IMG/VR virus record: IMGVR_UViG_3300010367_000012
Span: 1-64,000 of that record
DNA: 64,000 nt
Source of the DNA: a virus
Strand: one strand, 5' to 3'
The position numbers and the translations under genes were made by a program. The notes under the pieces were generated by a model that had not been told where the DNA came from, did not search any database, and saw only the letters and a list, made by a program, of their open reading frames with translations. This document shows positions 4,957 to 48,260 of the stretch, piece after piece; the first letter of the stretch is position 1; the number at the start of each line of letters is the position of its first letter.

Positions 4957-5577
4957 ATGGAGTTCAAGCCCTGGCCTAGCATCCCTCGTATGTCGAAGGA
5001 GCAGGTTACTGTAACTGAGAAGATCGATGGCTCGAATTCAGCGGTTCGTATTCGTCCATTCAATATCGATGATGACCGTATCGATCAGGTTGATACAGTC
5101 TCTATCGATGGTGAGAAGTACACTCTGTGGGCACAGTCCCGTAAGCGTCTCCTTCAGCCTGTAAAGGAAAAGGACAACTTTGGATTTGCTCGTTGGGTCT
5201 ACGACAATGCTCCTGCACTTGTTCGTGTGCTTGGTCCTGGTGACCACTATGGCGAGTGGTGGGGAAGCGGCATTCAGCGGTCCTACGGGCTGTCTGAGAA
5301 GCGTTTCAGCCTCTTCAATGCTCCTCGTTGGTCTGAGGTTCTGAGTCCCACAGAAGCGCTCTCAGAGGTTTCTAACCTGTACATCGTTCCACTGCTCTTC
5401 AAGGGTAGGTTCTACGATCTCGACACCAAGTCTCTTCGTGATGATCTGGTGGAGAACGGCTCGAAGGTTGTCCCTGGCTTCAAGTCAGAAGGCATGGTAG
5501 TGTACCTTCGAGAGGTCAACGCGAGTTACAAGGTTCTCTTGGAGAACGACGAAATCCACAAGTGGGAGACAAAGTAG
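4957..5577 (+). CDS. RNA ligase, Rnl2-like
   Basis: 206 residues of nucleotidyltransferase-fold ligase. Motif I with the adenylated lysine is EKIDGSN (K22); a middle motif is GEWWGSGIQRSY; motif IV is SEGMVVYLR; motif V is YKVLLEN near the C-terminus. These enzymes seal RNA breaks with ATP. It is shorter than T4 Rnl2 (about 330 residues), consistent with loss of the C-terminal domain. A second, larger RNA ligase is encoded at 56650, and the tRNA array at 43-54.5 kb is an obvious substrate source. Confidence 0.85.
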   Translation: MEFKPWPSIPRMSKEQVTVTEKIDGSNSAVRIRPFNIDDDRIDQVDTVSIDGEKYTLWAQSRKRLLQPVKEKDNFGFARWVYDNAPALVRVLGPGDHYGEWWGSGIQRSYGLSEKRFSLFNAPRWSEVLSPTEALSEVSNLYIVPLLFKGRFYDLDTKSLRDDLVENGSKVVPGFKSEGMVVYLREVNASYKVLLENDEIHKWETK

Positions 5578-5590
5578 TTGCTTGTCTCGT

Positions 5591-5607
5591 CATCCTCTAG
5601 TAGGATG
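5591..5607 (+). other. Short hairpin upstream of the lipoprotein gene
   Basis: CATCCT and AGGATG form a 6-bp stem with a 5-base loop. There is no T-run, so it is a weak terminator at best; it may sit in the leader of the next gene. Confidence 0.4.
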
Positions 5608-5635
5608 GCGTGGCTGGTCACTACTAGGAGTAAAA

Positions 5636-6816: not shown

Positions 6817-7138
6817 TGTTGCTCCTCAATGGTTTCACGATGATCCAAAGAAGACAGCCAAATGTGTGTCCTTTCCCGCTACTGCGGATTATGACCCTTG
6901 GTATGGAGAGTCGGATGATCCTGATGCTGTAGACGAGACAGAAGACGCAAAGAATATCTGCTTAGGCACGTACGATGGACGACCGTGCCCCTTAAAGGAA
7001 CTCTGCTTAGAATTCGCTATGGTCAATAACGAACGCTGGGGAGTCTGGGGCGGGATGTCACCTGATGAACGTGCGAAACTGAGAAAGGAAAAGAGAAAGA
7101 ATTGGCAACCATCAGCAGCGGCTGGGGACCTAAGCTAA
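6803..7138 (+). CDS. WhiB-family iron-sulfur transcription factor
   Basis: 111 residues from ATG 6803 (TTG 6797 is in frame). It has the four cluster cysteines C21, C53, C62 and C68 (NIC, RPCPLKELC) and the family turn GVWGGMSPDER. WhiB proteins bind a [4Fe-4S] cluster and the primary sigma factor and control development in actinobacteria; phage copies can redirect host transcription. It is thus a strong marker of an actinobacterial host. The C-terminal tail is basic (RKEKRKNW), suited to DNA contact. Confidence 0.92.
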   Translation: MKLRSVAPQWFHDDPKKTAKCVSFPATADYDPWYGESDDPDAVDETEDAKNICLGTYDGRPCPLKELCLEFAMVNNERWGVWGGMSPDERAKLRKEKRKNWQPSAAAGDLS

Positions 7139-8103
7139 AAGGTAACCTAGCTAATTACGCCAATGCTTCTAAGGGAACCGTTCTCTTGGGAGATATTCAA
7201 GCCCATATGATTAAGGAAAATGCCAAGCCTTCCACTCGTAGGCAAGACATCGTGCACCCGTCTGAGACGTCGAAAGAAGACTGGTGTCCCCTGGCTACCT
7301 ACCATCGGATTTTGGCCTGTAGAGAGGCAAACAACCCCTATCTCAAGCCTGCTGAGACCATCGCTCCACAGCTCCTGAACATCTTCGATGAGGGACACAA
7401 CATCCACGACAAGTGGCAGCGTCGAATCTGGAAGATGGGAGATCTCTGGGGTAACTGGAAGTGTCTGAGATGTGATACCTTCGTCAGATCTGACAACCTT
7501 CCTGACAAGTGCCATATATGCGGCATGGGTGTTGAAGGAATGCAGTATCTTGAGGTACCCTTGCGCTATGACCCGCTGTTGATCGCTGGTCATGCAGATG
7601 GCGCGGTTCCAAAGCTGAATGCTCTTATCGAGATTAAGTCGGTAGGCGCTGGTACCGTTAGAATGGAAGCACCTGATATATACAAAGCGAATGTTGATGG
7701 CTCACATATCAATCTTCAAGGTTTGTGGAAGGACATCAAAGAGCCTTTCCCAAGCCATATCAGACAGGGTCAGCTATATCTAGCTCTTTGTGCTCGAATT
7801 GGATTGCCATTTGATCAAATCCTCTTTCTATATGAAAGTAAGTTTAATCAGGGTGTAAAGGAATTCCTTGTAAAGTACGACCCTGAAGTGTCAAGGGGCA
7901 TTCTATTGAATTGCTCTGATATTGTCGCTGCTCTGGATTTGGGGGGACCGCTTCCAGAGTGCCCTACTGGTACGTGTAAAGATTGCGAGAAATATGGCAC
8001 GCAGAAATCCGATTCAGAGCGGATGGTTAGAGAACACAACTCTGAGAGAAAAGCCGTCAGACGACCAACCAGTTCTCCCACCAGGATTGTCAGATCTACC
8101 TGA
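7102..8103 (+). CDS. Cas4/RecB-like PD-(D/E)XK exonuclease
   Basis: 333 residues from TTG 7102. An N-terminal cysteine at WCPLATYHR (C62), the core GHADG ... IEIKSV at about 162-178, and a C-terminal cluster CPTGTCKDC match the RecB-family nuclease with a four-Cys iron-sulfur site. An internal CLRC/CHIC zinc ribbon sits before the core. Likely a single-strand DNA exonuclease feeding recombination. It overlaps WhiB by 37 bp. Confidence 0.85.
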   Translation: MATISSGWGPKLKGNLANYANASKGTVLLGDIQAHMIKENAKPSTRRQDIVHPSETSKEDWCPLATYHRILACREANNPYLKPAETIAPQLLNIFDEGHNIHDKWQRRIWKMGDLWGNWKCLRCDTFVRSDNLPDKCHICGMGVEGMQYLEVPLRYDPLLIAGHADGAVPKLNALIEIKSVGAGTVRMEAPDIYKANVDGSHINLQGLWKDIKEPFPSHIRQGQLYLALCARIGLPFDQILFLYESKFNQGVKEFLVKYDPEVSRGILLNCSDIVAALDLGGPLPECPTGTCKDCEKYGTQKSDSERMVREHNSERKAVRRPTSSPTRIVRST

Positions 8104-8461
8104 CGATGTACTGATGGATCTGTTGGTTGATTTCACCAACTGGACTGGCTATGCTGGTTATCAAGTTGCTTTGAATGAAATTGCCGAAAGAAAGGCCGAA
8201 CGCAGTCTTCAGCGCGTATTCGACCGATACAGTATTGTCCATAAGAAGGAGAAGACTGTAGCAGCGACTAAGGCAATGGTTCAGCAAGAGGAAGAATATA
8301 TGGAGGCAGAAGACGCAGTTGAACTAGCGTACGCGGTAACGAAACTCTCAAAATCGGAATATACCCACCTAGAGGCTGCAAGTAAGGTAGTATCCAGAGA
8401 ACTGTCTCGCCGTATTTCTAGACGTGATCTAGAAGGCCGTGTAGACAAATACGCATCGTAG
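7994..8461 (+). CDS. Helical protein of unknown function
   Basis: 155 residues if started at ATG 7994; a start at 7922 in the same frame lacks a ribosome site and would deepen the overlap with the nuclease gene. LSDLPDDVLMDLLVDF is followed by long charged helices (QEEEYMEAEDAVELAY, RELSRRISRR), probably coiled coil. It overlaps the nuclease gene by about 110 bp in another frame, so the true start may lie further downstream. Confidence 0.6.
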   Translation: MARRNPIQSGWLENTTLREKPSDDQPVLPPGLSDLPDDVLMDLLVDFTNWTGYAGYQVALNEIAERKAERSLQRVFDRYSIVHKKEKTVAATKAMVQQEEEYMEAEDAVELAYAVTKLSKSEYTHLEAASKVVSRELSRRISRRDLEGRVDKYAS

Positions 8462-8468
8462 GTGGAAA

Positions 8469-8906
8469 ATGACTGTTGTCCGTGGGCAGATTTATCAATA
8501 TAACTTAAATCCAATGGTTTTCTTCAGCATTCAGAGGGTTTATTCTGTAAATCAGATTCTCATAATGAATGTTGATACCCGTGCACAAACGTACTTTACT
8601 CAGACTAGATTGCTGAGTACCTGTACGCTTGTGGACTCTGTACCACCAAATAGACTCCACAATGGCTACCATTTCACTGGTGGAGCGGTTACGGTAAGTC
8701 TGGCTTTTGCCTTGACGACACCGTTCACCAGTGGTAGAGTTCTTGCTCACGGCACAGTCACAAAGCCCAGAGCGTTCGCCCCTACGTACTTGCAGGGGCG
8801 TACCGCTGACCATGCTAGTGTGACTAGCGCTGGACTCATTAATCCACTTGTCCTAGGAGGACACTTTGCCAGCAAAGGGCGCACGGTACAAGCATCGCTC
8901 AATTAA
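8469..8906 (+). CDS. Hypothetical protein with SH3-like N-terminus
   Basis: 145 residues; GGTGGAA precedes the ATG. The first 50 residues (VVRGQIYQYN ... FSIQRVYSV) resemble small beta-barrel phage proteins; the rest is Thr/Ser/Ala-rich. The 3' end overlaps the next gene by 41 bp, and no good start is visible in between. The C-terminal half could be non-coding. Confidence 0.5.
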   Translation: MTVVRGQIYQYNLNPMVFFSIQRVYSVNQILIMNVDTRAQTYFTQTRLLSTCTLVDSVPPNRLHNGYHFTGGAVTVSLAFALTTPFTSGRVLAHGTVTKPRAFAPTYLQGRTADHASVTSAGLINPLVLGGHFASKGRTVQASLN

Positions 8907-9036
8907 GGATGTTGTGTACAAGATCGATGAGGTTGACAACAAGGCTAAGGCGGTATACCTTGTAGAAACCAACGGACGCGGCGCACGTGTTCGAGTGACA
9001 TTTACTCAGTTGAGCGACAGCTACGAAAGGGCTTAA
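8866..9036 (+). CDS. 56-residue basic beta-type protein
   Basis: TTG 8866 follows a perfect AGGAGG by six bases. The product PAKGARYKHRSIKDVVYKI... is basic at its N-terminus and ends in beta-like strands (VYLVETNGRGARVRV). Size and pattern suit an SH3/KOW-like barrel, similar in style to the proteins at 52663 and 52976. It ends two bases before the next GTG. Confidence 0.65.
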   Translation: MPAKGARYKHRSIKDVVYKIDEVDNKAKAVYLVETNGRGARVRVTFTQLSDSYERA

Positions 9037-9037
9037 A

Positions 9038-9394
9038 GTGCACATCACGTATTCTATGGTTCAGGAAGATCTTCCCGCTATCATCGCCACAAAGGGTGAG
9101 GATTTTCAGTATGAGGTTCATCCTGGCTCTGGTGGTACTTGCCTGTACGTGTGGGAGGGTGAGCCTGACTGTCTGATTGGCTGCTATCTGGCTGATCTGG
9201 GACTTCCTCTTGAGGCTTTCAGCAAGTTTGAGGGCAGCGGTATTGACTCCGCTTTTGGGAATGGCCATCTTGAAGAGTTCGGCTTTACCGCTGACTATGA
9301 GGCCATTAACGCCATGGAACGCATTCAGAATCTTCAGGATAATCAGTACACCTGGGGAGACGCGTACGACCGAATTTTCGATTCAGAACAGTAA
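9038..9394 (+). CDS. Conserved-looking acidic hypothetical protein
   Basis: 118 residues from GTG 9038. Acidic and soluble, with LYVWEGEPDCLIGCYLADLG near the middle. No catalytic motif stands out. It sits directly upstream of thyX and may be co-transcribed with it. Confidence 0.7.
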   Translation: MHITYSMVQEDLPAIIATKGEDFQYEVHPGSGGTCLYVWEGEPDCLIGCYLADLGLPLEAFSKFEGSGIDSAFGNGHLEEFGFTADYEAINAMERIQNLQDNQYTWGDAYDRIFDSEQ

Positions 9395-9402
9395 GGAAAT
9401 AA

Positions 9403-10116
9403 GTGAAGTTAACAGTGTTAGCTTCCACCTATTTTGAAGAGTTGCCGGATTCCGTTAGAAATACGGAGTTCGGCACTTTTCATGGTGGAGAGCCCCATCA
9501 GTCCGCAGATCGTCTAGCGCATTTTGCTGGACGTTCTTGTTATCAGTCCTGGAAGATGCCTAATCCTGATACTGCTACAGATGAAGGTTATCTGAATAAC
9601 ATTATCAATCAGGGCCATTTCTCAGTTCTTGAGCACGCTAGCGTTACTTTCTATGTAGAAGGCATCAGCCGTAATATGACTCACGAGTTGATTCGACACA
9701 GACACCTGAGCTATTCTGAGCTTTCTCAGCGCTACATCAATATGGAGGATGCCTATATTATGGTTCCTCCCGCTGTTGACGCACTAGAGGGCAAGGATTG
9801 GGCGGAAACTGTAGGATTAATGGGTCGTACTATGTCAGAGGCTACAGATCGCTATAAGCGAATCGTGAAGTTCTTTGAGAAGAACGATGTCAAGGGTAAG
9901 AAGGCACGTGAAGCAGCAAGAGCCTTGCTTCCAGGCGGTACAGAGACTAAGATCGTAGTCACTGGAAACCACAGAGCATGGCGTGATATGCTCCACAAGC
10001 GTTACAGCGTACATGCTGATGCAGAGATCAGAGAGTTTGCCACTTTGGTTCTTAAGGAACTGAAGAAGATTGCCCCTGGAACTTACCAGGATTTCCCAGA
10101 TAAGCCTTTTGACTAA
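9403..10116 (+). CDS. thyX: FAD-dependent thymidylate synthase
   Basis: 237 residues, GTG start. The ThyX signature RHR-x2-S-x-SE-x-SQRY is present at 98-111 (RHRHLSYSELSQRY). The enzyme methylates dUMP to dTMP with methylene-tetrahydrofolate and NADPH through FAD, acting as a tetramer. Length is normal for the family. With the class II reductase it gives the phage its own dTTP supply. Confidence 0.95.
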   Translation: MKLTVLASTYFEELPDSVRNTEFGTFHGGEPHQSADRLAHFAGRSCYQSWKMPNPDTATDEGYLNNIINQGHFSVLEHASVTFYVEGISRNMTHELIRHRHLSYSELSQRYINMEDAYIMVPPAVDALEGKDWAETVGLMGRTMSEATDRYKRIVKFFEKNDVKGKKAREAARALLPGGTETKIVVTGNHRAWRDMLHKRYSVHADAEIREFATLVLKELKKIAPGTYQDFPDKPFD

Positions 10117-10124
10117 GGAGTTAT

Positions 10125-10484
10125 ATGTCTGAACCGAAGCTTGACTTTGAGGATGCTCGTGTAGTTGACTGTCACGATCTCGATAAGTTCGTTGCTATAC
10201 ATCTTGAAGGTTTTGATGTAGAGTGGCGCGCACTGGAGTCGTCCCGTTGGGATGGTTTCCACAATGGTAGTTTTGCGGAAGCTGACGTGGCTCCTGGTAA
10301 GGAGTCTGACTGGCTTGATGATGGTGAGGACTTCGATAGGTGGCTTCTAGGAGGATATTACTTCGATGAAGACAGTTATGGATTCTCTGGTAATGAGATT
10401 CCCAGCGTAGAGTCAATGCTTCAATGGCTTTGCGATCAAGATAAGATTCCTGCTGGTAAGTATGTGGTGAAGCTCTGGTGGTAG
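10125..10484 (+). CDS. Acidic hypothetical protein
   Basis: 119 residues, very acidic (Asp/Glu-rich throughout), with several Trp. GGAG precedes the ATG and it begins 8 bp after thyX. No family recognised. Highly acidic phage proteins are sometimes DNA mimics; there is no evidence for that here beyond charge. Confidence 0.7.
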   Translation: MSEPKLDFEDARVVDCHDLDKFVAIHLEGFDVEWRALESSRWDGFHNGSFAEADVAPGKESDWLDDGEDFDRWLLGGYYFDEDSYGFSGNEIPSVESMLQWLCDQDKIPAGKYVVKLWW

Positions 10485-10705
10485 AAGAATTCATTACTGT
10501 AAGAGAGTTCATTGAGATGCTTAAGGAGTTTCCTCCCGATACTCCAATGATTCTCTCTACTGATGCAGAGGGAAATGAGCTTCGTATGGTAAATGGTGTA
10601 GGAATACGCTATGTTACTGAACTAGAGCATCGTTTCATGGACAGTATTGACGACACAGAGCTTGACGAGTACGATACATGGGTAATGACTACGGAGGTAT
10701 GGTAA
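10478..10705 (+). CDS. Small phage protein with a conserved-type N-terminus
   Basis: 75 residues from GTG 10478, overlapping the previous gene. The opening TVREFIEMLKEFPPDTPMIL followed by a beta strand is a pattern common in small actinophage and proteobacterial phage proteins of unknown role. Acidic C-terminus. The stop overlaps the next ATG. Confidence 0.75.
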   Translation: MVEEFITVREFIEMLKEFPPDTPMILSTDAEGNELRMVNGVGIRYVTELEHRFMDSIDDTELDEYDTWVMTTEVW

Positions 10706-10893
10706 TGGAGCCTGTTTTCGAGCTTAAGTGGAAGTACCGTTGCCCCAAGCAGCGTGGACGTTACTCCGGTGGTACTCACAATGGTCCTCCGAAGAAGCGT
10801 AAGAAGGTAGGTAGCAAGATCAAGCCTACTCAGCAGCGTGTGATGATCCTCCAGGCCAATGGCAGGGTTGCGTGGGACTGGCAACCGGTGTAA
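10705..10893 (+). CDS. 62-residue basic protein
   Basis: Start set at ATG 10705 because GGAGG lies at 10693-10697 and the ATG overlaps the preceding stop; the ATGs at 10678 and 10699 are badly placed. The product is strongly basic in the middle (PPKKRKKVGSKIK), suggesting nucleic-acid binding. Begins MEPVFELKWKYRCP. Confidence 0.7.
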   Translation: MEPVFELKWKYRCPKQRGRYSGGTHNGPPKKRKKVGSKIKPTQQRVMILQANGRVAWDWQPV

Positions 10894-10926
10894 GGTAGTA
10901 CTTGTAACTGACCGACACAACGAAGG

Positions 10927-11139
10927 ATGACAATGGGTAAGCACAAGGGACCGAAGGAAGATCCGCAGGGTACTCAGGCTGGTAAGCCTTGGGAAGAGCT
11001 GACTCCTGAAGAGAAGGGTAAGGAGTTTGACGCTTCTCACGCCCGTCCGGTAAGCTACGCTCACAAGAACTTCAAGACTGCTAAGCCTGGTGAGGGTGGT
11101 CGTGGTTTCGGATTCGGTAAGCCCAAGCACAAGCGGTAA
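10927..11139 (+). CDS. Low-complexity Lys/Gly-rich protein
   Basis: 70 residues (or 68 from ATG 10933, which is better spaced from GAAGG). MGKHKGPKEDPQG and GEGGRGFGFGKPKHKR suggest a disordered, basic nucleic-acid-associated or virion peptide. It is the last gene before a terminator. Confidence 0.65.
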   Translation: MTMGKHKGPKEDPQGTQAGKPWEELTPEEKGKEFDASHARPVSYAHKNFKTAKPGEGGRGFGFGKPKHKR

Positions 11140-11152
11140 GTAAACAATCGAG

Positions 11153-11187
11153 AGGCCCTATCTGGAAAGGTAGGGCCTTTCTTGTTA
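11153..11187 (+). terminator. Intrinsic terminator
   Basis: AGGCCCTATC (11153-11162) pairs with GGTAGGGCCT (11169-11178), one G-U, then TTCTTGTT. It separates the thyX group from the SLOG-protein group. Confidence 0.85.
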
Positions 11188-11198
11188 TAGGAGGATTA

Positions 11199-11594
11199 AT
11201 GACAATTGTAGTTATCACTGGTTCCCGAGATTGGCCAATGAGCAAGGCTCATCTTATCTGGGATGCCCTCAGAAAGCTCCAGAAGGCCCATGAGGACGCC
11301 TGGCACTGGGAAGAGGCGCACATGGTACTCCATCATGGTGAATGTCCGTATGGTGGCGCTGACCTGATTGCAGCCTCTTGGGCTGACGGAGCAGACTGGG
11401 AAGTCATTTCCCATCCGCCCATTAAGCAGGCTGCATGGGCATACGCTAAGCGGAATCAGGAAATGATTGACCTGAAGCCTGACTATGTAGTAGCATGCTT
11501 CCTAGAAGGCGCGGGAAACCGTGGAACTCAGATGACATTTGATATGGCCGTAGAGGCTGGTCTTTCCGACAACATTAAGGTGGTAAGAGGTTAA
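11199..11594 (+). CDS. SLOG-family protein (YspA/DUF2493-like)
   Basis: 131 residues, GGAGG before the ATG. The nucleotide-binding start VVITGSRDWP, a central HHGECPYGGADLIAASWA and a C-terminal strand ending VVACFLEG match the small SLOG superfamily related to lysine-decarboxylase-like and DprA folds. Such proteins are thought to bind nucleotide-derived ligands or NAD-type signals; the ligand is unknown here. Confidence 0.8.
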   Translation: MTIVVITGSRDWPMSKAHLIWDALRKLQKAHEDAWHWEEAHMVLHHGECPYGGADLIAASWADGADWEVISHPPIKQAAWAYAKRNQEMIDLKPDYVVACFLEGAGNRGTQMTFDMAVEAGLSDNIKVVRG

Positions 11595-24745: not shown

Positions 24746-24988
24746 ATGGCTGCTGTCTCCTTCACTCAGTCCTGTGACGTTCACTTTGCGCACTCGCACA
24801 CTGAGCCTGTGAACTGTTTCGGTGAGGCTTCGGCAATGGCGCTCATGTTCATCTGTGAGTTTGCGATTGTTGACGAGATCCCCAGCATTGCGCTTGAGTG
24901 GAGCAAGAACGACGGTACCGAGACGTTTGAGATCTCCTTTGAGGATGATCTCTCGGGTGCGGAAACTGTTCTGACTTTCACTGTCTGA
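24746..24988 (+). CDS. Hypothetical protein
   Basis: 80 residues with GAAAGG before the ATG. Acidic, hydrophobic centre (AMALMFICEFAIV) but no clear membrane span. No family recognised. Confidence 0.7.
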   Translation: MAAVSFTQSCDVHFAHSHTEPVNCFGEASAMALMFICEFAIVDEIPSIALEWSKNDGTETFEISFEDDLSGAETVLTFTV

Positions 24989-24999
24989 GTTAGTGAGAT

Positions 25000-25034
25000 T
25001 GCCTTTATCCTCTCTCTTATTAGAGGGGATAAGG
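25000..25034 (+). other. Post-stop hairpin
   Basis: CCTTTATC ... GATAAGGG form an 8-bp stem extended by CTCT/AGAG with one bulge, after the stop at 24988. A second hairpin CTTCCT/GGGAAG lies before the next start. Confidence 0.5.
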
Positions 25035-25075
25035 GTTGTCTTCCTAAAACAGGGAAGCTAAAGAAAGGCCATATC

Positions 25076-25627
25076 ATGGCTATTGGTGAGACGTTCTCGC
25101 ACCTTGAGCTTTCTTTCTCTGCCTATGTGGGCATTGAGGGAGTTAACCGACGCGTTATCTTCCGTGACGTTGAGTTTGACGACACGCACGATTGTGGTTC
25201 GGTCGACAACATCATCAAGGGTATGGAGCGTGCGGGGTGGGAGATTCACACTGCCCTGATTCACACTGAGAATGACTCGGCATACATCGATAACAAGGAT
25301 GCCGCTACGGTTTCCGCTGTCTTTGATGCACTGTTTGAGTCTCCCGAAGAGGCTGGTAAGATCATCGCGTATGGTGAGCTTTTCGGCTGGACTGAAAGCC
25401 ACTTTGAGCGTAACCGTTACGGTCGTTCTTATGAAGATGGTTTTTACGGTGTGTATGACAATGCCGAGGAATTCGCGCAAGAGTTTGTCGAGAATGACGA
25501 AGAGACTTCGGGAATTCTCACGTCTCCTTATATCTCTGTGGATTGGGAGCAGACAGCGGATAACCTCATGAATGACTTTGCGTCGCATGAGTACGGTTAT
25601 GAGCTGTACGTGTTCGCCAATCACTAA
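25076..25627 (+). CDS. ArdA-like antirestriction protein
   Basis: 183 residues, acidic. The C-terminal two thirds match the ArdA style: YGVYDNAEEFAQEFVE, then PYISVDWEQTADNLMND and a final YVFANH. ArdA proteins mimic DNA and block type I restriction enzymes. The N-terminal third is less typical, so the call is for a divergent member. It lies in a block of likely early genes. Confidence 0.7.
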   Translation: MAIGETFSHLELSFSAYVGIEGVNRRVIFRDVEFDDTHDCGSVDNIIKGMERAGWEIHTALIHTENDSAYIDNKDAATVSAVFDALFESPEEAGKIIAYGELFGWTESHFERNRYGRSYEDGFYGVYDNAEEFAQEFVENDEETSGILTSPYISVDWEQTADNLMNDFASHEYGYELYVFANH

Positions 25628-25633
25628 CCATTC

Positions 25634-25680
25634 GCTTTAGTCGCTATCCCTCGCTTACATAGGAGGGATAACGGCTATGG
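25634..25680 (+). repeat. GCTTTAGTC/GGCTATGG hairpin element, copy A
   Basis: GCTTTAGTC (25634-25642), stem TATCCCTC/GAGGGATA (25645-25652, 25663-25670), GGCTATGG (25673-25680). TAGTC and GGCTA can extend the stem. It starts seven bases after the stop at 25627. Confidence 0.75.
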
Positions 25681-25697
25681 TCAATGGAGGTGAAATA

Positions 25698-25913
25698 GTG
25701 TTTGCTAAAATCCTTACCCGTAGTGGTAACGATGATGACCCGAACCCTGTTGGTGTAGGCTTTTACTACATTGACGACGATAACGAGCGACAGAAGAAAT
25801 TGCGTGTTGCTCGTTGTTATACCACCATGATTGAAAACAGCAAGTTCAAACGTCGCACCGTTTTCTATGACAGAGACGGTAAGGCTGTTTGTACTGGTTG
25901 GATGATGTGGTAA
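25698..25913 (+). CDS. Hypothetical protein
   Basis: 71 residues from GTG 25698 with GGAGG seven bases upstream; the frame's ATG at 25677 is inside the hairpin element. Basic, aromatic (GFYYIDDDNERQKK). No family recognised. Confidence 0.65.
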   Translation: MFAKILTRSGNDDDPNPVGVGFYYIDDDNERQKKLRVARCYTTMIENSKFKRRTVFYDRDGKAVCTGWMMW

Positions 25914-25919
25914 TCGACA

Positions 25920-25974
25920 GCTTTAGTCATATCCGATAGAGATATCGGATTTGGCTATGGCTAGCGGTCGCTAG
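25920..25974 (+). repeat. GCTTTAGTC/GGCTATGG hairpin element, copy B
   Basis: GCTTTAGTC (25920-25928), perfect stem ATCCGATA/TATCGGAT (25931-25938, 25943-25950) with loop GAGA, then GGCTATGG (25953-25960), six bases after the previous stop. It is followed by CTAGCG-GT-CGCTAG (25961-25974). Confidence 0.75.
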
Positions 25975-26002
25975 TCGTTTGTTACAGAAAGGCACAACCA
26001 TA

Positions 26003-26236
26003 ATGGTTACTTACGAGCGTCAGTCTCCCTCTGAGATTCGTACGGGTGACAAGGTTACGGATGCACTCGGTAGGGTGTTCGTCGCGTACTCCGATGCTGA
26101 GTTGTCCATGGGTGACTATTGCGTTAACGGTGTCCTTATGGATGGCGGAGACGTGAAGTCATTTATCCTTGACGCTGATTCTCTCGTGACTATCTCTTAT
26201 GACGAGTCCGTTTGGAACGAAGACACCTACGTCTAA
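26003..26236 (+). CDS. Hypothetical protein, beta-rich
   Basis: 77 residues from ATG 26003 (the in-frame TTG at 25979 is weaker). TGDKVTDALGRVFVAY resembles a small barrel domain. GAAAGG lies about 12 bases upstream. No family recognised. Confidence 0.65.
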   Translation: MVTYERQSPSEIRTGDKVTDALGRVFVAYSDAELSMGDYCVNGVLMDGGDVKSFILDADSLVTISYDESVWNEDTYV

Positions 26237-26257
26237 AACTGAATAGCTTTACCACTT

Positions 26258-26307
26258 AGCCTACGGCTCTAGTTCTTCGATAGAATTAGAGCCGTAGGCT
26301 TTTTGTG
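26258..26307 (+). terminator. Intrinsic terminator
   Basis: AGCCTACGGCTCTA (26258-26271) pairs perfectly with TAGAGCCGTAGGCT (26287-26300), followed by TTTTTGTG. Confidence 0.9.
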
Positions 26308-26331
26308 TTTCTATTCAGGAGAATTCAATTC

Positions 26332-26517
26332 ATGAGTAATCAAACAGAACCAAAGTTATGGGAAAAGAAGACATTCGCTAGTGCTGCTTTCTCTGCCTTA
26401 TTGGCTGCGCTTGCTGCTGTCTCTGTGTGCGCCGTACGCGGAGAGACCTTAGCTCTTCCCCCTATGACGCACGTTAGCGGCTCACAGAGTCACCTAGACA
26501 GCTCAGAAGGGAAGTAA
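26332..26517 (+). CDS. Small protein with one membrane segment
   Basis: 61 residues from ATG 26332 after CAGGAG. A single hydrophobic helix (about 14-32, FASAAFSALLAALAAVSV) with polar ends; Lys/Glu-rich N-terminus inside, Ser-rich tail. Could be a signal anchor. No family recognised. Confidence 0.65.
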   Translation: MSNQTEPKLWEKKTFASAAFSALLAALAAVSVCAVRGETLALPPMTHVSGSQSHLDSSEGK

Positions 26518-26521
26518 CGCC

Positions 26522-26689
26522 ATGCCTTATGAAGTGAGAAAGGTCAAGGGTGGATACAAGGCAGCACACAAGGGAACGAGCAAGACCTTTAGCAAGCATC
26601 CACAGAGCAAGGAGACAGCACGCAAGCAGATTCAAGCTATCGCCATCCATACACACGAGTTCAGCCACGGAGCACAGAGCAGCCGTTAA
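26522..26689 (+). CDS. 55-residue basic protein
   Basis: ATG 26522, four bases after the previous stop, with GGAAG upstream. Product MPYEVRKVKGGYKAAHKG ... TFSKHPQSKETARKQ is strongly basic and follows a pattern seen in small phage proteins (YEVRKV, GK-x-FSK-x-P). Nucleic-acid binding is plausible. Confidence 0.65.
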   Translation: MPYEVRKVKGGYKAAHKGTSKTFSKHPQSKETARKQIQAIAIHTHEFSHGAQSSR

Positions 26690-26850
26690 GATACCTGTGT
26701 GCCCCTGTGACGTCCTCCCGTACGACAGTTGACCACAGAGACCCACTCCTCAAAGGATCTTGCTACAGGAGCGTACAGAGCTTCTATGTAGCACACTTTG
26801 TTTGCCCCGTGTCGGCAAGCCTGCTGAGTACATGTCAAGTCATGACACAC
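26690..26850. other. Short intergenic region without clear features
   Basis: Nothing beyond weak palindromes is visible between the last + gene and the convergent terminator. Confidence 0.5.
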
Positions 26851-26896
26851 GAAAAACCCCTAGCCATTCCCGTTAAGGATTGACTAGGGGTTTTCG
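26851..26896. terminator. Bidirectional terminator
   Basis: AAAACCCCTAG (26853-26863) pairs with CTAGGGGTTTT (26884-26894), with A-run on the left and T-run on the right. It marks the switch from + to - strand genes. Confidence 0.85.
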
Positions 26897-26900
26897 CTAT

Positions 26901-27098
26901 TTACTGGTGAAACAGGATCTTGCCATCCTTCACACAGATATTATCTGCGCTCTTATCCACGGTGCCGTGTGCCATTGAGACACAATCCTTTTTGAATTGC
27001 CCCGCTTCCTTATACGGAATAGCTACAAGACCCCAAAGAATTGCACTAATCATAACTCCGATTAGCATTCCAGCAAAAGCCGCTAGTGGTTCCATCAT
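26901..27098 (-). CDS. Small membrane protein
   Basis: 65 residues. One N-terminal membrane helix (about 5-28, FAGMLIGVMISAILWGLV) and a polar tail with two cysteines. Starts at 27098 or 27095. No family recognised. Confidence 0.65.
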   Translation of the reverse strand: MMEPLAAFAGMLIGVMISAILWGLVAIPYKEAGQFKKDCVSMAHGTVDKSADNICVKDGKILFHQ

Positions 27099-27110
27099 TC
27101 CCCTTAGAGG

Positions 27111-27320
27111 TTACTTGCCCAGGATGCGCGAAATAACATCCTTGCCACTCAGCAAGAGCGATCCCCAACCAAGAGCGGAAGCAATAGCCAGGATCACCAG
27201 CGCGGTAACGAATGCGCCGATAGCGTGAGCGACCATCACAATAAGCAAGATCACACCCCATACAGCCATGCCAAGAGAGGCAACAGCAAGAGCGAGCGCA
27301 ACCCAATTGCGAGCGTTCAT
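27111..27320 (-). CDS. Small membrane protein
   Basis: 69 residues, almost entirely hydrophobic, with two helices (about 6-30 and 33-55). Adjacent to another membrane protein gene; the pair could be holin-like, but they lie far from the lysis enzymes. Confidence 0.65.
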   Translation of the reverse strand: MNARNWVALALAVASLGMAVWGVILLIVMVAHAIGAFVTALVILAIASALGWGSLLLSGKDVISRILGK

Positions 27321-27354
27321 TATCCGATATCCATTCTGTGAGTCGATTAGTCGG

Positions 27355-27394
27355 ACATAGAGACTCTGGGAATTGCTTCCCAGAATCCCTAAAC
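27355..27394 (-). repeat. Hairpin element, divergent copy F
   Basis: Read on the - strand: TTTAGGGA, stem TCTGGGAA/TTCCCAGA with loop GCAA, TCTCTATG. TAGGGA and TCTCTA pair, keeping the TTTAG ... CTATG frame of the element. It follows the stop of the 27403 gene by eight bases. Confidence 0.6.
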
Positions 27395-27402
27395 CCTGCT
27401 AA

Positions 27403-28290
27403 TCAGGCAGCGTCAACCGTGTGTGCGTCTTCCTGCGCCTTTGCCACCTTAAGCCAGTAATCCCGCGCGCTCTGAGTAATAGCAGTGTGCGCCATGTCCC
27501 ACGTGTTCGCGTTGACACCCTCGGGACGCTCCGGGATCTCGTTAGGCTCATCAAGCGCAAGTCCGCTCTTGACAATGCGAGACTCATAAACCATATCGCC
27601 AGTCTCAGCGTCAATGAACTGATCCAGTCCATCAATTTCCGGCAGTCGTACAGGCGTAAGAGTCTTCAGCTTTTCGGCCAAAGCCTCTACAGCGTCCGCA
27701 GTCTTGGGAGCATCCTTGCGAATGGCGTTGATGATATCGGAAACCTTCTCTTCAGAGATCAGCCGCTCACCCTTTGCAGCGTCCAGTTCCCTACGCGCTC
27801 CCTTGGGGTCGTTCTCAGGGTCAACAGGAACCGTAACGTTCGTGCCGTCCGCAGCCTGTACAGGCTCCACAGCGGGCAGAACATCAGAGGCAATGAAACC
27901 CTGTGCGCGCTCATCTGCATACGCGTTATACGCCGTACGCTCCTTGTAATCCTGCTCCTTCTGAGTGAGCTTACGCGGCTCATCCTTGACGACAGGAGTA
28001 GCGTTCGAAAGAGCCTCACGCGCAATTGCAAGCGCGTTGTCTTCCGACACATCCGGAACATCAATCCACCACTCAGCAGCCAAGCCACGGCCGGACGCGT
28101 CCACCAGCTCAAGATCAGCGAGAGCGTCAAGCGCGTTGAATGCCTCGCTAGGCGTAATGCCCATCTCAGCCGCGAAATCCTCGGTAGAAACCGCGTCATC
28201 CTGCGTCACGTCGAATGAGGCAAGAACCTTGAAAACCTCCGCAAGATCGAGCGAACCGGTTTCCTGCGTCTTGCTCGGACGAGTAGCCAT
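27403..28290 (-). CDS. Acidic protein with winged-helix-like N-terminus
   Basis: 295 residues. Residues 15-75 (VFKVLASFDVTQ ... EDFAAEMGITPSEAFNALDALADLELV) look like a winged helix-turn-helix; the rest is acidic and helical. Possibly a regulator or DNA-associated protein of the early block. Its own promoter lies at 28343-28372. Confidence 0.65.
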   Translation of the reverse strand: MATRPSKTQETGSLDLAEVFKVLASFDVTQDDAVSTEDFAAEMGITPSEAFNALDALADLELVDASGRGLAAEWWIDVPDVSEDNALAIAREALSNATPVVKDEPRKLTQKEQDYKERTAYNAYADERAQGFIASDVLPAVEPVQAADGTNVTVPVDPENDPKGARRELDAAKGERLISEEKVSDIINAIRKDAPKTADAVEALAEKLKTLTPVRLPEIDGLDQFIDAETGDMVYESRIVKSGLALDEPNEIPERPEGVNANTWDMAHTAITQSARDYWLKVAKAQEDAHTVDAA

Positions 28291-28342
28291 TTTCTTGTGT
28301 CCTTCCGTCTCGGTTCCTTGTGTTAGGAACCTGATAGGACAG

Positions 28343-28372
28343 ACGTTAGTCTCCCAACGTCCATCCTGTCAA
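28343..28372 (-). promoter_or_regulatory. Promoter, - strand
   Basis: TTGACA (28372-28367), 18 bases, TAACGT (28348-28343). A hairpin GGTTCC/GGAACC follows before the ribosome site. Confidence 0.7.
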
Positions 28373-28391
28373 GCCACTAGCTCAAGATCTT

Positions 28392-28820
28392 TTACAGCTC
28401 ACACGGACCCTGGCACGTTTCGCAGTAGTCTTCCGCGTAGTCGTACCATGACTCTGCATCTTCCTGCCCGAACACCCCTGCATACCACGCTGTGACGCTG
28501 TAAGCGGTCTGTTCGTCCCTTTCCTCATCCTGCCACTCAGAAAGCCACAGAGCGCGTTCCTTGCGCTTGATCTCCCTACGGTGAGCCTGCCCCTTCTCCC
28601 CTTCGTCCGCGTAGTGGTGAGACAGTACGCGAGAGTTAGCGGAGACACCCGCACCGTTCTTGTACTTGCGACGGTTACGGTTAGCAGTGCCCGGAACGGG
28701 AATGCCCTTGTCTTCCGGAAGAGCATGGTAACGACGCTTAGCGATCTTGGCCAGTTCAGCCCAGAAAGCGTAATAAGCCTCGCGGTTTTCCATGAACGGG
28801 CCGGTAGGACGCTCCAACAT
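28392..28820 (-). CDS. Hypothetical protein
   Basis: 142 residues, charged and aromatic, with a C-terminal CETCQGPC cluster that may bind metal. GGAAGGAA precedes the ATG. Promoter at 28856-28885. No family recognised. Confidence 0.65.
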   Translation of the reverse strand: MLERPTGPFMENREAYYAFWAELAKIAKRRYHALPEDKGIPVPGTANRNRRKYKNGAGVSANSRVLSHHYADEGEKGQAHRREIKRKERALWLSEWQDEERDEQTAYSVTAWYAGVFGQEDAESWYDYAEDYCETCQGPCEL

Positions 28821-28855
28821 ACTGTGTTCCTTCCTGCTGTCTTACTGTTGAGTCC

Positions 28856-28885
28856 AACTTAGTGGACACAGCCACCCCCTGTCAA
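28856..28885 (-). promoter_or_regulatory. Promoter, - strand
   Basis: TTGACA (28885-28880), 18 bases, TAAGTT (28861-28856). Leader hairpin GTCCA/TGGAC overlaps the -10 region. Confidence 0.7.
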
Positions 28886-28917
28886 CACCCAGGGAGCGAC
28901 TGAATCAACTAGGTTGA

Positions 28918-29397
28918 TTAGTCCCAAAGGTCCGATTCGTACGCTCCCGACTCATAGGCGTATTCATCATCGCCGTATTCGTCATAAAGCGGCTCATCAT
29001 CTGCGAATTCGTCGTAAGCCTCTACAGTGCTATTCCATGCCCTTTCGAGCATTTCGTCACTGTCATAAAACATCGCACGAACTGAGCCGTCAGAATCTGA
29101 AACCAGAATCGCACGATAATCCGAGAACAGATCGAAGAAACCGAACGTCGATTGATCCCCTACGGAATCACTTGCGTAACCCTCCATTGCGAGGCAATCG
29201 AGAATTTCCGTGTCAAGGTTTGCATACTTACCGAGACTGTTGTAATTCTCCTCAATTACCGCAGAATGCACGTGATAACGGAATCCGTCACCTTCAGCAG
29301 TAAGCGAGAACGAATGTCCGTCAATGTCTCGCCACATGTCCGCCTTATTCTCGATAAGCTCAAGGCAGACAGAGCAGATACCGTAATTCGCAATCAT
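28918..29397 (-). CDS. Acidic hypothetical protein
   Basis: 159 residues from ATG 29397, chosen because GGAAGG lies about 10 bases upstream and a hairpin element occupies the longer frame. N-terminal CSVC pair, then a very acidic Asp/Glu/Tyr tail. Charge could suggest DNA mimicry; no family is recognised. Confidence 0.65.
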   Translation of the reverse strand: MIANYGICSVCLELIENKADMWRDIDGHSFSLTAEGDGFRYHVHSAVIEENYNSLGKYANLDTEILDCLAMEGYASDSVGDQSTFGFFDLFSDYRAILVSDSDGSVRAMFYDSDEMLERAWNSTVEAYDEFADDEPLYDEYGDDEYAYESGAYESDLWD

Positions 29398-29423
29398 AAT
29401 CCCGTTTCCTTCCGAGTAAGGGA

Positions 29424-29462
29424 CCATAGCCACGCACCTATTTCTAGATGAATGACTAAAGC
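29424..29462 (-). repeat. GCTTTAGTC/GGCTATGG hairpin element, copy E
   Basis: On the - strand GCTTTAGTC (29462-29454), stem CATCTA/TAGGTG with loop GAAA, GGCTATGG (29431-29424). Starts three bases after the stop of the 29466 gene. Confidence 0.7.
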
Positions 29463-29465
29463 CTA

Positions 29466-29666
29466 TTACACGAAGTGCCAGATAATCCAGGCAACGAGAG
29501 CAAGAGGACCGATAGTAATTGCTCCAAGACATCCGAAGCAACCACCAATAGCCAAGACCTTAGCTAGTGGTCCCTCATCCCCATAACCGTTTTCAAGTGC
29601 GCTAGCCATACGATCCCGCAAAGGCTGATCTTTGCGAGTGCTAGGAAGTCGCGCCCAATTAGGCAT
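29466..29666 (-). CDS. Small membrane protein
   Basis: 66 residues from ATG 29666 (AAAGGA upstream). Basic N-terminal half and a long C-terminal hydrophobic stretch (about 37-64, one or two helices). No family recognised. Confidence 0.6.
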   Translation of the reverse strand: MPNWARLPSTRKDQPLRDRMASALENGYGDEGPLAKVLAIGGCFGCLGAITIGPLALVAWIIWHFV

Positions 29667-29740
29667 TTCCTTTTCCCTTCTAGTGTCCAGCACCACGAAC
29701 CTACAGCACGTAGGCTCATGATGCAAGAGGCTAGCTAGGA

Positions 29741-30187
29741 TTACTTGACAGGCTTCACCGTGAGGATATTCGGGTACCAAGAGAGAACATGGTTACGAAT
29801 ACCGCGCACGTGGAATGTGTACGTCTGGCCCTTCTTAATCTGACTGTACATGTCCGAAGAATTCCACTTGCCATTTACCATGGAATCGGAATCCTCAAAG
29901 ACTCCCTTATCGGTGAAGATAAGGTAAGTGGAAGAATTGTTGTCATTCTTCACCAACTTATCCGTAACCGTAGCGGTAACGTCCTTAGTGGGGTGCAGTG
30001 CCTCATACAGGCCAACACCACCAAACGTCACCAGACCAAGAGCACCCGCAAGGAGGATGCCGGAACCGATGTTACGGGACTTGTGAGAACGGTATTGCGG
30101 ACGCGAGTTATACCGTGTGGTCGGGACACTACGCGCAATGTCGGAAAGCGATTCCTTGCGCATGCTCGGCTTGCTGTCCTGAACCAT
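29741..30187 (-). CDS. Membrane-anchored protein with extracytoplasmic beta domain
   Basis: 148 residues. Basic N-terminus, one membrane helix (about 41-60, GSGILLAGALGLVTFGGVG), then a beta-rich domain (TATVTDKLVKNDNNSSTYLIFT). Topology suggests a domain outside the cell membrane. Role unknown; surface exclusion is one option. Confidence 0.65.
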   Translation of the reverse strand: MVQDSKPSMRKESLSDIARSVPTTRYNSRPQYRSHKSRNIGSGILLAGALGLVTFGGVGLYEALHPTKDVTATVTDKLVKNDNNSSTYLIFTDKGVFEDSDSMVNGKWNSSDMYSQIKKGQTYTFHVRGIRNHVLSWYPNILTVKPVK

Positions 30188-30233
30188 TGATCTATTCTCC
30201 TGTTTTCGACGGATTGAATACCTGACTAGATAT

Positions 30234-30274
30234 CCATAGCCAATTTCCCTAATGAAAGGGAAAGTGACTAAAGC
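30234..30274 (-). repeat. GCTTTAGTC/GGCTATGG hairpin element, copy D
   Basis: On the - strand GCTTTAGTC (30274-30266), stem TTTCCCT/AGGGAAA, GGCTATGG (30241-30234). Starts three bases after the stop of the 30278 gene. Confidence 0.75.
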
Positions 30275-30277
30275 GAC

Positions 30278-30490
30278 CTAGACAGCGAAATTCAGGATTC
30301 CCGCACGCTTGGCAGTCTTACGCATAATCACGCGAGACTCACCCTTGATGTGCTTTGCAGCGTACTGCATTGCTGCTTTCTTCGAAAGGGGAAGGAATGC
30401 GCCGAACTCCACGCGCTCACCCTTGCCATTCGGCACAACCACCACGTAGTGATTGGGGCGAACAAGGTTCATGGGCTGAATCATAAGCAT
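30278..30490 (-). CDS. Small basic protein
   Basis: 70 residues, beta-rich first half (HYVVVVPNGKGERVEFG) then a basic helix. No family recognised. Confidence 0.65.
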   Translation of the reverse strand: MLMIQPMNLVRPNHYVVVVPNGKGERVEFGAFLPLSKKAAMQYAAKHIKGESRVIMRKTAKRAGILNFAV

Positions 30491-31038: not shown

Positions 31039-31144
31039 TTTTTCTGTCTCCTTGTGTCTTGCGTCGTTCCCTGCTGACAGATCTAAGACTGTCATACCCT
31101 CGCTTGAGCGTCAAGCCCCAACGTTCAAGCAAGAGTAAAACCTC

Positions 31145-31639
31145 TTAGATGCCTGCTACGTGATCATGGTTGATGTAGTCAGTGACTGTACCGTCACGAT
31201 GCGTCACGCTGTAGCATGAACCATTATTTGCGTGGAATGCCGAAGAAATAAGCCCGTACTTGATAACGGGATTCTTTTCTTCATCCTTTGTCAGAATGGC
31301 AACACTTGCACCAATCGACCGAGAATTGTGAATCTGATTTCCCCGGAGCATAGAGAAATGCTCAATAGTGAGGTAATTCTCATGTGCCGTGTCTTCCTCA
31401 GTGACAGGAACATACTTGCGCACGTCGGAGCTGTCAACGCTCCATTCCTGCCCGCTCGTGTCGAGAACGTACCTTCCCGCGTCGCTCCGATACCGCACAA
31501 CGATACCGGTAATGAGCTTGTACCCACGAGGAGCCTTCACAAGGGCAGTGACGCTATCCCCAACGTCACCACGTGCGCTAGTCTTCTTCCGAAGGTCCTG
31601 GAATTCCCGAACAGCCCTGAAGGATTCGGAGACGGACAT
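31145..31639 (-). CDS. Hypothetical protein
   Basis: 164 residues, soluble, with an SH3-like middle part (GDVGDSVTALVKAPRGYKLIT). GAGGAA precedes the ATG region. No family recognised. Confidence 0.65.
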   Translation of the reverse strand: MSVSESFRAVREFQDLRKKTSARGDVGDSVTALVKAPRGYKLITGIVVRYRSDAGRYVLDTSGQEWSVDSSDVRKYVPVTEEDTAHENYLTIEHFSMLRGNQIHNSRSIGASVAILTKDEEKNPVIKYGLISSAFHANNGSCYSVTHRDGTVTDYINHDHVAGI

Positions 31640-31718
31640 ATCTAATTCCTCTCGTATTGCTGGCAGGATTAGCCAGACTTACCCAATCCCCCATTTCTGG
31701 GGGAATGAGTAGGCTTGT

Positions 31719-32015
31719 CTAAGCCTCTTCAAACAGTGTCATTGCGTGCCGCTCACCGTGGAGCCACGATCCACAACTATCACAGTCCGAAGTACTGTAC
31801 GAGCGTTCCTCACAATCGCAGAAACCCTCTCCGTCACAGTCTTCCGCATGGTCACCCAAACGCATGCCCATAGCTACCGTGAAAGGCCACACAATGAGGC
31901 ACAAAGGCTCTTCATCGTGCCCATGGTCTGAATGACAGTCTCCACACTCACCATTTGCATGATGGTGCAGACAATTGCCACAAACCCAAATGGTCCCGTA
32001 ATCCTTAAGTGCCAT
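31719..32015 (-). CDS. Cys/His-rich metal-binding protein
   Basis: 98 residues with at least ten cysteines: WVCGNCLHHH, CGDC, FCDCEE, CDSCGSW, plus many histidines. Likely two or more zinc sites. Overlaps the next gene by its start region. Function not recognised. Confidence 0.65.
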   Translation of the reverse strand: MALKDYGTIWVCGNCLHHHANGECGDCHSDHGHDEEPLCLIVWPFTVAMGMRLGDHAEDCDGEGFCDCEERSYSTSDCDSCGSWLHGERHAMTLFEEA

Positions 32016-32340: not shown

Positions 32341-32419
32341 TGTTTTAGCCTCTCGTCTGTCACCCTGTCTAGGTGGACAGTGCAGAGCTTAGCGCTTGTC
32401 TAAGCCCCACACAACCCCT

Positions 32420-32566
32420 CTAGCGCGTCAGCAAGTCCAAGTAATGCCAGTACATCGCTTCTGCTTTCTTACGCCAGTACTCCCGATACTGGGAGCGTGA
32501 CAAACCCTCACCCGTCATGCGCGTCTCATAGAACTTCAAACGCCGTTCCATCTCTTCGCGTGACAT
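32420..32566 (-). CDS. 48-residue basic helical protein
   Basis: Start at ATG 32566 because AGGAGG lies just upstream; the 32611 start is poor. Arg/Lys/Trp-rich helix (YREYWRKKAEAMYWHYL). Promoter at 32600-32628. Confidence 0.65.
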   Translation of the reverse strand: MSREEMERRLKFYETRMTGEGLSRSQYREYWRKKAEAMYWHYLDLLTR

Positions 32567-32599
32567 GTGCTTACCTCCTGGTCTAGGTGAACAACACCC

Positions 32600-32628
32600 A
32601 TCTAAGCACATGCGCTAACGCGAGTCAA
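32600..32628 (-). promoter_or_regulatory. Promoter, - strand
   Basis: TTGACT (32628-32623), 17 bases, TTAGAT (32605-32600). Confidence 0.7.
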
Positions 32629-34165: not shown

Positions 34166-34437
34166 TGAATTTCTCCAGTTTCTGACCCCAGCGATTTTAG
34201 CGCTGTCTAGAGAGGGCACGCTGTTTAGTTCTCAAAGAGCAGTGAAGCACGGGCACACTATGTGTCGTTTAATCTCTATGATTTACATTCAAGAGACCCG
34301 CTGTGTTGCTGTCTTGCTGGTCACTATCCTTGCACTTGCTGTCTTGCCTGTCAACTCCCCTTGTGAGCGTCCCTCGCGTCGTTTTAGGCCCGTAGGCTGT
34401 CCCGCTTGGGCTGTGCTCTGTGGTGCCAACAGGGAGG

Positions 34438-48232: not shown

Positions 48233-48260
48233 AATGGCGTACCACAACAAGGAGGATGGA

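Follow-up and report, generated by a model that had tools for sequence, protein, structure and literature searches.

The stretch of viral DNA analysed here (the window) covers positions 1 to 64,000 of the IMG/VR record IMGVR_UViG_3300010367_000012, a 112,476-base genome of a Streptomyces phage related to BRock; a nucleotide search against known phages gave no match. At the ends of many of its genes lie imperfect hairpins with flanks GCTTTAGTC and GGCTATGG. Four copies with exact flanks (A, B, D and E) are found at 25634-25680(+), 25920-25960(+), 29424-29462(-) and 30234-30274(-), and these are the only exact ones in the whole record, while the reversed control pattern gives none. With permuted flank letters the same rule gives 0.005 hits per genome, against 4 found. 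The flanks pair with each other (CUUUAGUC/GGCUAUGG, with one U-U mismatch), so that each copy forms a single hairpin of ~54 nt made up of an outer stem of ~6 bp that usually contains the stop codon of the upstream gene, a core with a U.G pair and a U-U mismatch, a near-fixed wobble four pairs higher, a variable upper stem of 10-12 bp, and a small loop.

Full elements were delimited with a covariance model (R1) and a motif rule, and folding of eight copies in the window gave z-scores of -4.1 to -6.5, with no shuffled sequence folding as well. Copy A (25627..25688, +; 35 bits, E=1.1e-8; -30.9 kcal/mol, z=-5.9) follows the ArdA-like gene 25076-25627, whose TAA stop ends at the first base of the element, and has 13 positional orthologues. 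Copy B (25913..25968, +; 36.2 bits, z=-6.5) begins at the last base of the TAA stop of ORF 25677-25913, occupies an orthologue slot, and is of a long-spacer type with an alternative downstream pairing. Copy F (27347..27402, -), which follows ORF 27403-28290(-), was not used in building R1 and was nonetheless recovered with 36.4 bits (E=3.6e-9, z=-6.4); its core GUUUAG/CUAUGU keeps the U.G pair and U-U mismatch and it has 8 orthologues. Copy D (29416..29469, -; 61.8 bits as a member of the seed, z=-4.8) contains the TAA stop of ORF 29466-29780(-) at nt 2-4, and copy E (30226..30281, -; 49.2 bits, z=-5.6) contains the TAG stop of ORF 30278-30490(-) at the same nucleotides.

Seven further copies were detected in the window, and another lies outside it at 106449(+). 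The copy at 31669..31722(-) has a variant core, with C-G and a C-A mismatch in place of U.G and U-U, and the TAG stop of ORF 31719-32015(-) at nt 2-4 (30 bits, E=6e-7, z=-4.1; orthologue slot). The copy at 28858..28913(-) has the core AUUCAGUC/GGCUGUGU, which keeps the U.G pair, the U-U mismatch and the wobble (23.9 bits, also found by the motif rule, z=-5.3). The motif rule identified a copy with a diverged core (AUUGCC...GGGUUGU) at 24990..25047(+) after ORF 24746-24988 (outer stem 7/8, z=-6.2), a copy with a CUUG...CUGG core at 5573..5625(+) at the TAG stop of ORF 4957-5577 (outer stem 7/8, stop offset +2; BRock has similar copies at 34274(-) and 33796(-)), and a copy with a GUUG...CUGU core at 32369..32423(-) at the TAG stop of ORF 32420-32611(-) (outer stem 6/8, stop offset +1). 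A probable weaker copy (CUUG...CUGG core, outer stem 5/8) at 29679..29735(-) follows ORF 29741-30187(-) and resembles one in BRock at 9332(+). A probable copy with a weak outer stem (UUUUACUC...GGGUAUGA) at 31084..31148(-), at the TAA stop of ORF 31145-31639(-), was detected by the motif rule without the outer-stem filter, with a hairpin of -22.3 kcal/mol.

Across the genome, R1 finds 7 copies and the motif rule 11, whereas no other of 255 letter combinations gives more than 3. BRock has 14 copies, and phages T7, TunaTartare and Comrade have none. We analysed 91-108 distinct elements, which occur in all five BRock-like isolates tested, in other Streptomyces-type phages and in Mycobacterium abscessus/chelonae phages, including cultured phages such as BRock and Alone3. 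Exact-pattern scans of IMG/VR gave mostly chance hits inside coding genes, and only hits passing the covariance model were used; the stringent CTAGT..ACTAG pattern gave nothing in the genome contigs searched. Hits at three loci (L036, L057 and L047) were judged likely chance because they lie in AT-rich contigs, a judgement made without reference to gene-junction context. Only 2 of 150 Streptomyces and 1 of 297 Actinomycetes genomes had a hit, in phage-like or mobile-element-like loci, which does not favor a general chromosomal element of the hosts, although this is a weak negative because the search scored only 19-38 candidates per genome.

Pairing in the seed alignment reached 93.5% of cells, with a covariation score of 0.702 against 0.215 for shuffled alignments (0 of 500 shuffles reach it) and at most 0.18 for slid partners. 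The seed was chosen for inner pairing, so two less biased tests carry more weight. The outer stem was not selected on and still covaries. In orthologous gene slots, where upstream proteins have a median identity of 30-64%, the upper stem is 34-40% identical while the core is 79-93%, and nearly all pairs are kept. An excess of G.U (115) over A.C (34) in the stems indicates RNA on the sense strand. The U10.G45 pair is present in 86 of 91 elements, the U11-U44 mismatch in 88 of 91, and a wobble or U-U at pair 15 in 89 of 91. The stop codon lies at exactly nt 2-4 in 61 of 90 elements, of which 51 are TAG, against 34 TAG in 178 genome ORFs. The elements lie on the coding strand, with upstream stop and downstream start on the same strand, and a start codon with an SD-like purine stretch nearly always follows at 8-40 nt (83 of 86). 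In BRock, most junctions of one operon (7.1-11.3 kb) carry a copy. In the long-spacer type the outer 3' arm has an alternative downstream partner of at least 6 Watson-Crick pairs in 17 of 42 elements, against 1.4 expected, while the short-spacer type shows none in excess.

The original prediction of a hairpin with conserved flanks and changing but paired stems is confirmed, and the phenomenon is larger than first described. The spacing of 3-8 nt after the stop, the coding-strand orientation, and the inclusion of copy F with its varied flanks were all correct. What had been missed is the pairing of the two flanks with each other, the covarying outer stem that usually contains the stop codon, the additional copies, the covariation of CUUUA/UAUGG itself (only the U.G pair plus the U-U mismatch is close to fixed), and the wide occurrence of the element in actinobacterial phages. 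The interpretation that accompanied it, a new RNA element acting perhaps as an RNase site, stabilizer or partial terminator, is partly supported. A new structured RNA is strongly supported by the covariation, the conserved gene slots, the wobble bias on the sense strand and the lack of any covariance match to an Rfam 15 family above gathering score, at the elements in the window or in ten related loci, in a permissive search. Loss of pairing in relatives, which had been named beforehand as grounds for rejection, was looked for and was not observed. An RNase site or stabilizer remains the leading but unproven reading, whereas a partial terminator is not supported.

Taken together, these analyses establish computationally a cis-acting RNA element placed at the end of translation between co-directional phage genes, with the hairpin architecture, near-fixed core, freely varying but paired upper stem and nearby ribosome-binding region of the next gene described above; it is very probably a working signal, while its function and its reader are inferred. 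We tentatively hypothesize, at somewhat less than even confidence, that the element punctuates polycistronic, mostly early, messages. In this view a host factor acting on double-stranded RNA, with RNase III as the prime candidate, would recognize the roughly two-turn helix (~22-25 stacked pairs with 1-2 mismatches) by its shape and process it, so that neighboring genes obtain separate mRNAs with structured ends. The upstream message would end in a hairpin flush with its stop codon, and in the long-spacer type the released outer 3' arm could refold with sequence just downstream into a hairpin at the new 5' end. The invariant mismatch and wobbles would tune recognition, for instance toward one-strand cutting or protection from complete cutting. 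The helix has the length (about 20 bp or more) and the intercistronic position, here between genes inferred to be co-transcribed, that are expected of an RNase III processing site. In favor of a host reader, six element-bearing viruses share no common protein and nine tested viruses encode no RNase III domain. U-G wobble enrichment is reported for RNase III distal boxes (PMC11780869). However, RNase III sites usually do not conserve a U-U mismatch this strictly, and mismatches could equally be there to prevent cleavage. The fixed register of the stop codon is not required for an RNase site and hints at a link with translation. Absence of the element from Stanwilliamsviridae phages of related hosts (TunaTartare, Comrade) means it is not general, although phages under the same host RNases might be expected to use it.

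Other readings are less likely. The element could stabilize the upstream message without being cut, as a barrier to 3'-exonucleases flush with the stop codon whose mismatches and wobbles are kept so that RNase III does not cut it. The ORF almost never runs into the element (stop offset +2 or less in 89 of 90), the hairpins are stable (-21 to -31 kcal/mol), and conserved non-Watson-Crick pairs interrupt a long duplex. Exonuclease barriers, however, need no fixed core, and the elements sit between co-directional genes rather than at operon ends, where a T-tailed terminator is seen instead (26258-26300, +); moreover the long-spacer type has a second, mutually exclusive hairpin. We consider this unlikely, and only slightly more probable than a binding site for a specific host or phage RNA-binding protein controlling translation or decay of flanking genes. 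A near-invariant core plus a wobble at fixed spacing in otherwise free sequence does look like a recognition motif, and the genome encodes an RNA-binding protein of PHROG 850 at 48234-49841, but this protein has no homolog (E<1e-4) in the other five element-bearing viruses compared, and many unrelated genes carry the site.

Still less likely is an element coupled to translation termination, in which the terminating ribosome opens the outer stem and the 3' arm then pairs downstream, affecting re-initiation, coupling or ribosome release. The preferred stop position, the strong preference for TAG and the alternative pairing of the long-spacer type fit this reading, and from known footprints a ribosome on that codon would be expected to cover roughly up to the conserved wobble. 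Yet 29 of 90 elements have the stop at other positions, up to 25 nt upstream, the TAG preference may simply reflect CTAG being self-complementary, and no SD is visibly sequestered by the alternative hairpin. A further, also unlikely form of this idea, which our data do not rule out, is a switch gated by termination, in which opening of the outer stem would also hide or expose the core for a host nuclease or binding protein, coupling the fate of each phage message to its own translation. A terminator or attenuator, or a DNA-level promoter or operator, is very unlikely. These are GC-rich hairpins between genes, and TTGAC is mildly enriched in loops (11 of 108, against 2.2 shuffled). However, the longest T run in the 20 nt after the core is 1-2 in 82 of 91 elements and 3 in 7, never more. 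The downstream gene is usually too close for a promoter, most loops with TTGAC lack a TANNNT-type hexamer 16-18 nt further on, and promoter-like sites are not above chance, with no sigma-70 promoter identified in or next to the hairpins. Compensatory stem changes and the excess of G.U over A.C also favor RNA.

As far as Rfam and the open literature searched show, the element is undescribed. It gives a ready handle on how phages of Streptomyces, M. abscessus/chelonae and their relatives partition their early messages, and because unrelated viruses share the element but no protein, it points to an unidentified host RNA-recognition activity in Actinobacteria. The covariance model and motif rule make copies easy to annotate.

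The closest counterparts are RNase III processing sites between genes of phage T7 and in the early mRNA of phage SP82 (for SP82, Panganiban and Whiteley 1983, cited in PMC12502629). They too are imperfect hairpins of about two helical turns between co-directional phage genes, just before the next ribosome-binding site, and are read by a host enzyme, as is inferred for the present element. Neither R1 nor the motif rule gave a hit in T7, and in the element inferred here to be processed, the U.G/U-U core and a wobble are near-invariant and the stop codon is built into the stem. RNase III cleavage motifs mapped in E. coli and B. subtilis (PMC11780869) are duplexes of similar length, with a U-G wobble preference reported in the distal box, but they are consistently paired around the cut, with no fixed U-U mismatch or stop-codon register described in the section consulted. 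REP-type and other intercistronic stabilizing hairpins of bacteria are likewise intergenic, after stop codons and within operons; REP elements are repeats conserved in sequence, whereas here the stems turn over freely and only the shape and core persist. The PeSL stem-loop cassettes of T4-type phages also lie between phage genes but carry an early promoter, which these elements do not show. Among intrinsic terminators, the T-tailed hairpin at 26889-26858(-) shares UAGUCA/UGGCUA, a similar lower-stem sequence with the same U.G pair, but it has a T run and no U-U core, and the elements have the reverse.

The window belongs to a 112,476-base virus record whose terminase is 80–81% identical to those of the Streptomyces phages BRock, Alone3, LuckySocke, pSt2308 and GiJojo, and it contains 30 tRNA genes. 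The original prediction held as an observation: the four copies with exact GCTTTAGTC...GGCTATGG flanks lie where it placed them, and no other exact copies were found in the record. When the flank letters were permuted, the same hairpin rule returned only 0.005 hits per genome. Its interpretation, that these are a new RNA element and perhaps an RNase site, stabiliser or partial terminator, is only partly supported.

The two flanks pair with each other (CUUUAGUC/GGCUAUGG, with one U•U), and outside them lies a further stem, typically CUAGU...ACUAG. The modal element is 54 nt long and symmetric, with outer stem pairs 1–6, a loose position 7, pair 8, C9-G46, U10·G45, U11•U44 and U12-A43, followed by a continuous stem to about pair 25 and often a tetraloop. 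In the seed alignment 93.5% of cells are paired and the covariation score is 0.702, compared with 0.215 for shuffled alignments and at most 0.18 for slid partners. These values must be interpreted with caution for the inner stem because the seed was picked for inner pairing and that part is partly circular, whereas the outer stem was not used for picking. A covariance model built from the seed (R1) found seven copies in this genome, including copy F and a copy at 31669 that were not in the seed.

Across 91 distinct elements, U10·G45 is kept in 86, U11•U44 in 88, and pair 15 is U·G, G·U or U•U in 89. Nearly every other pair shows compensatory change, including C9-G46 (A-U, G-C) and, in more distant copies, U12-A43 and A13-U42. 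A rule based only on the U·G, U•U and pair-15 features finds 11 copies here and 14 in BRock, while the other 255 letter choices at the two fixed pairs give at most three each in these two genomes. The rule found no copies in TunaTartare, Comrade, Success or T7, and the single hits in Lumos and Jasmine have no gene-junction context. Stem cells contain 115 G·U against 34 A·C on the coding strand, indicating an RNA rather than a DNA element. The covariance model is itself strand-aware and contributes to this bias, but the core motif fixes the strand independently.

Copies of the element sit in conserved gene slots. One slot follows an ArdA-like antirestriction gene (annotated as such in Alone3) in 13 viruses or loci, including window copy A, and two other slots have nine and eight members. 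The window gene in the ArdA-like slot, at 25076–25627 (+), is 81–87% identical in two environmental relatives and around 30% identical in more distant members of the slot. A further element at 106449–106502 (+) of the record, outside the window, occupies a slot conserved in at least nine viruses. In the three slots the upstream proteins are at median 30–64% identity and the core is 79–93% identical, while the upper stem is only 34–40% identical, yet most stem pairs are intact. This is turnover under selection for pairing.

In 61 of 90 elements the stop codon occupies exactly nt 2–4, and 51 of these are TAG, compared with 34 TAG among 178 non-overlapping ORFs of the genome. Stops lie upstream in nearly all the others, and the ORF almost never extends into the element. 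A start codon with an SD-like stretch was found nearby in 83 of 86 elements, in nearly all of them 5–48 nt downstream of the 3′ end, although a few of these assignments fall inside the element and are artefacts of the rule. In BRock (NC_048650), most junctions in a run of small early-type genes at 7128–11261 carry an element.

Two types of element could be distinguished by the distance to the next gene. When the next start codon is 24 nt or more away (n = 42), 25 elements have ≥5 and 17 have ≥6 Watson–Crick pairs between the outer 3′ arm and sequence just downstream, compared with 6.4 and 1.4 in shuffles. Examples are BRock 8304–8361 and the elements at 2727–2785 in locus L254 and 206–263 in locus L033. 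This excess is somewhat inflated because orthologous elements are not independent, but elements with short spacers (n = 65) show none. The downstream hairpin and the outer stem exclude each other, which was an unexpected feature.

R1 hits occur in all five BRock-like isolates tested (3–4 each), in environmental relatives of ~111 kb (up to 11), in a 57-kb contig related to prophage-like loci in Streptomyces genomes, in Mycobacterium abscessus-type prophage contigs and phages Aegeus and prophiGD54-2, and in contigs whose terminases are nearest to Streptomyces or Arthrobacter phages. Host assignment of the metagenomic contigs rests only on such nearest relatives. Two Stanwilliamsviridae, Comrade and Annadreamy, have no hits; TunaTartare and BillNye have only marginal matches, and Ankus has one weak match (25.6 bits).

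No Rfam family matches the element, and full-text searches of the open literature, which leave out subscription journals but include the BRock genome paper, found no description of it. Intercistronic mRNA elements are already known as a kind, and we consider this to be one with an unusual core and stop-codon register. A T-tailed hairpin at 26858–26889 (-) (CCCCTAGTCA...TGGCTAGGGGTTTTT) shares the UAGUCA/UGGCUA pairing of the elements but lacks the U-U core, and may be a terminator derived from, or ancestral to, an element. Another T-tailed terminator lies at 26258–26300 (+). The apical loops of 11 of 108 elements, including BRock 8673–8729 and the window copy at 28858–28913 (-), contain TTGAC against a shuffled expectation of 2.2. 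This motif resembles a -35 hexamer but is not accompanied by a consistent -10.

No protein is shared by all six element-bearing viruses that we compared, and no RNase III domain was found in nine, so a host reader is likelier than a phage one. The window does encode a PHROG 850 protein (RNA-binding protein, E = 2e-51) among the tRNA genes at 48234–49841 (+), but it has no homologue in the five unrelated element-bearing viruses compared. While the structure, its covariation and its placement come directly from the sequence analysis, the host reader and any cleavage of the element are inferences. The alternative hairpin of the long-spacer type would fit a new structured 5′ end after a cut in the core, or a ribosome-operated switch, and our data do not separate the two. 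A published motif analysis reports U-G wobbles in RNase III distal boxes (PMC11780869). In length, position, lack of a T tract and operon punctuation, the elements resemble the host-RNase-III processing sites of phages T7 and SP82 (for SP82, Panganiban and Whiteley 1983, cited in PMC12502629).
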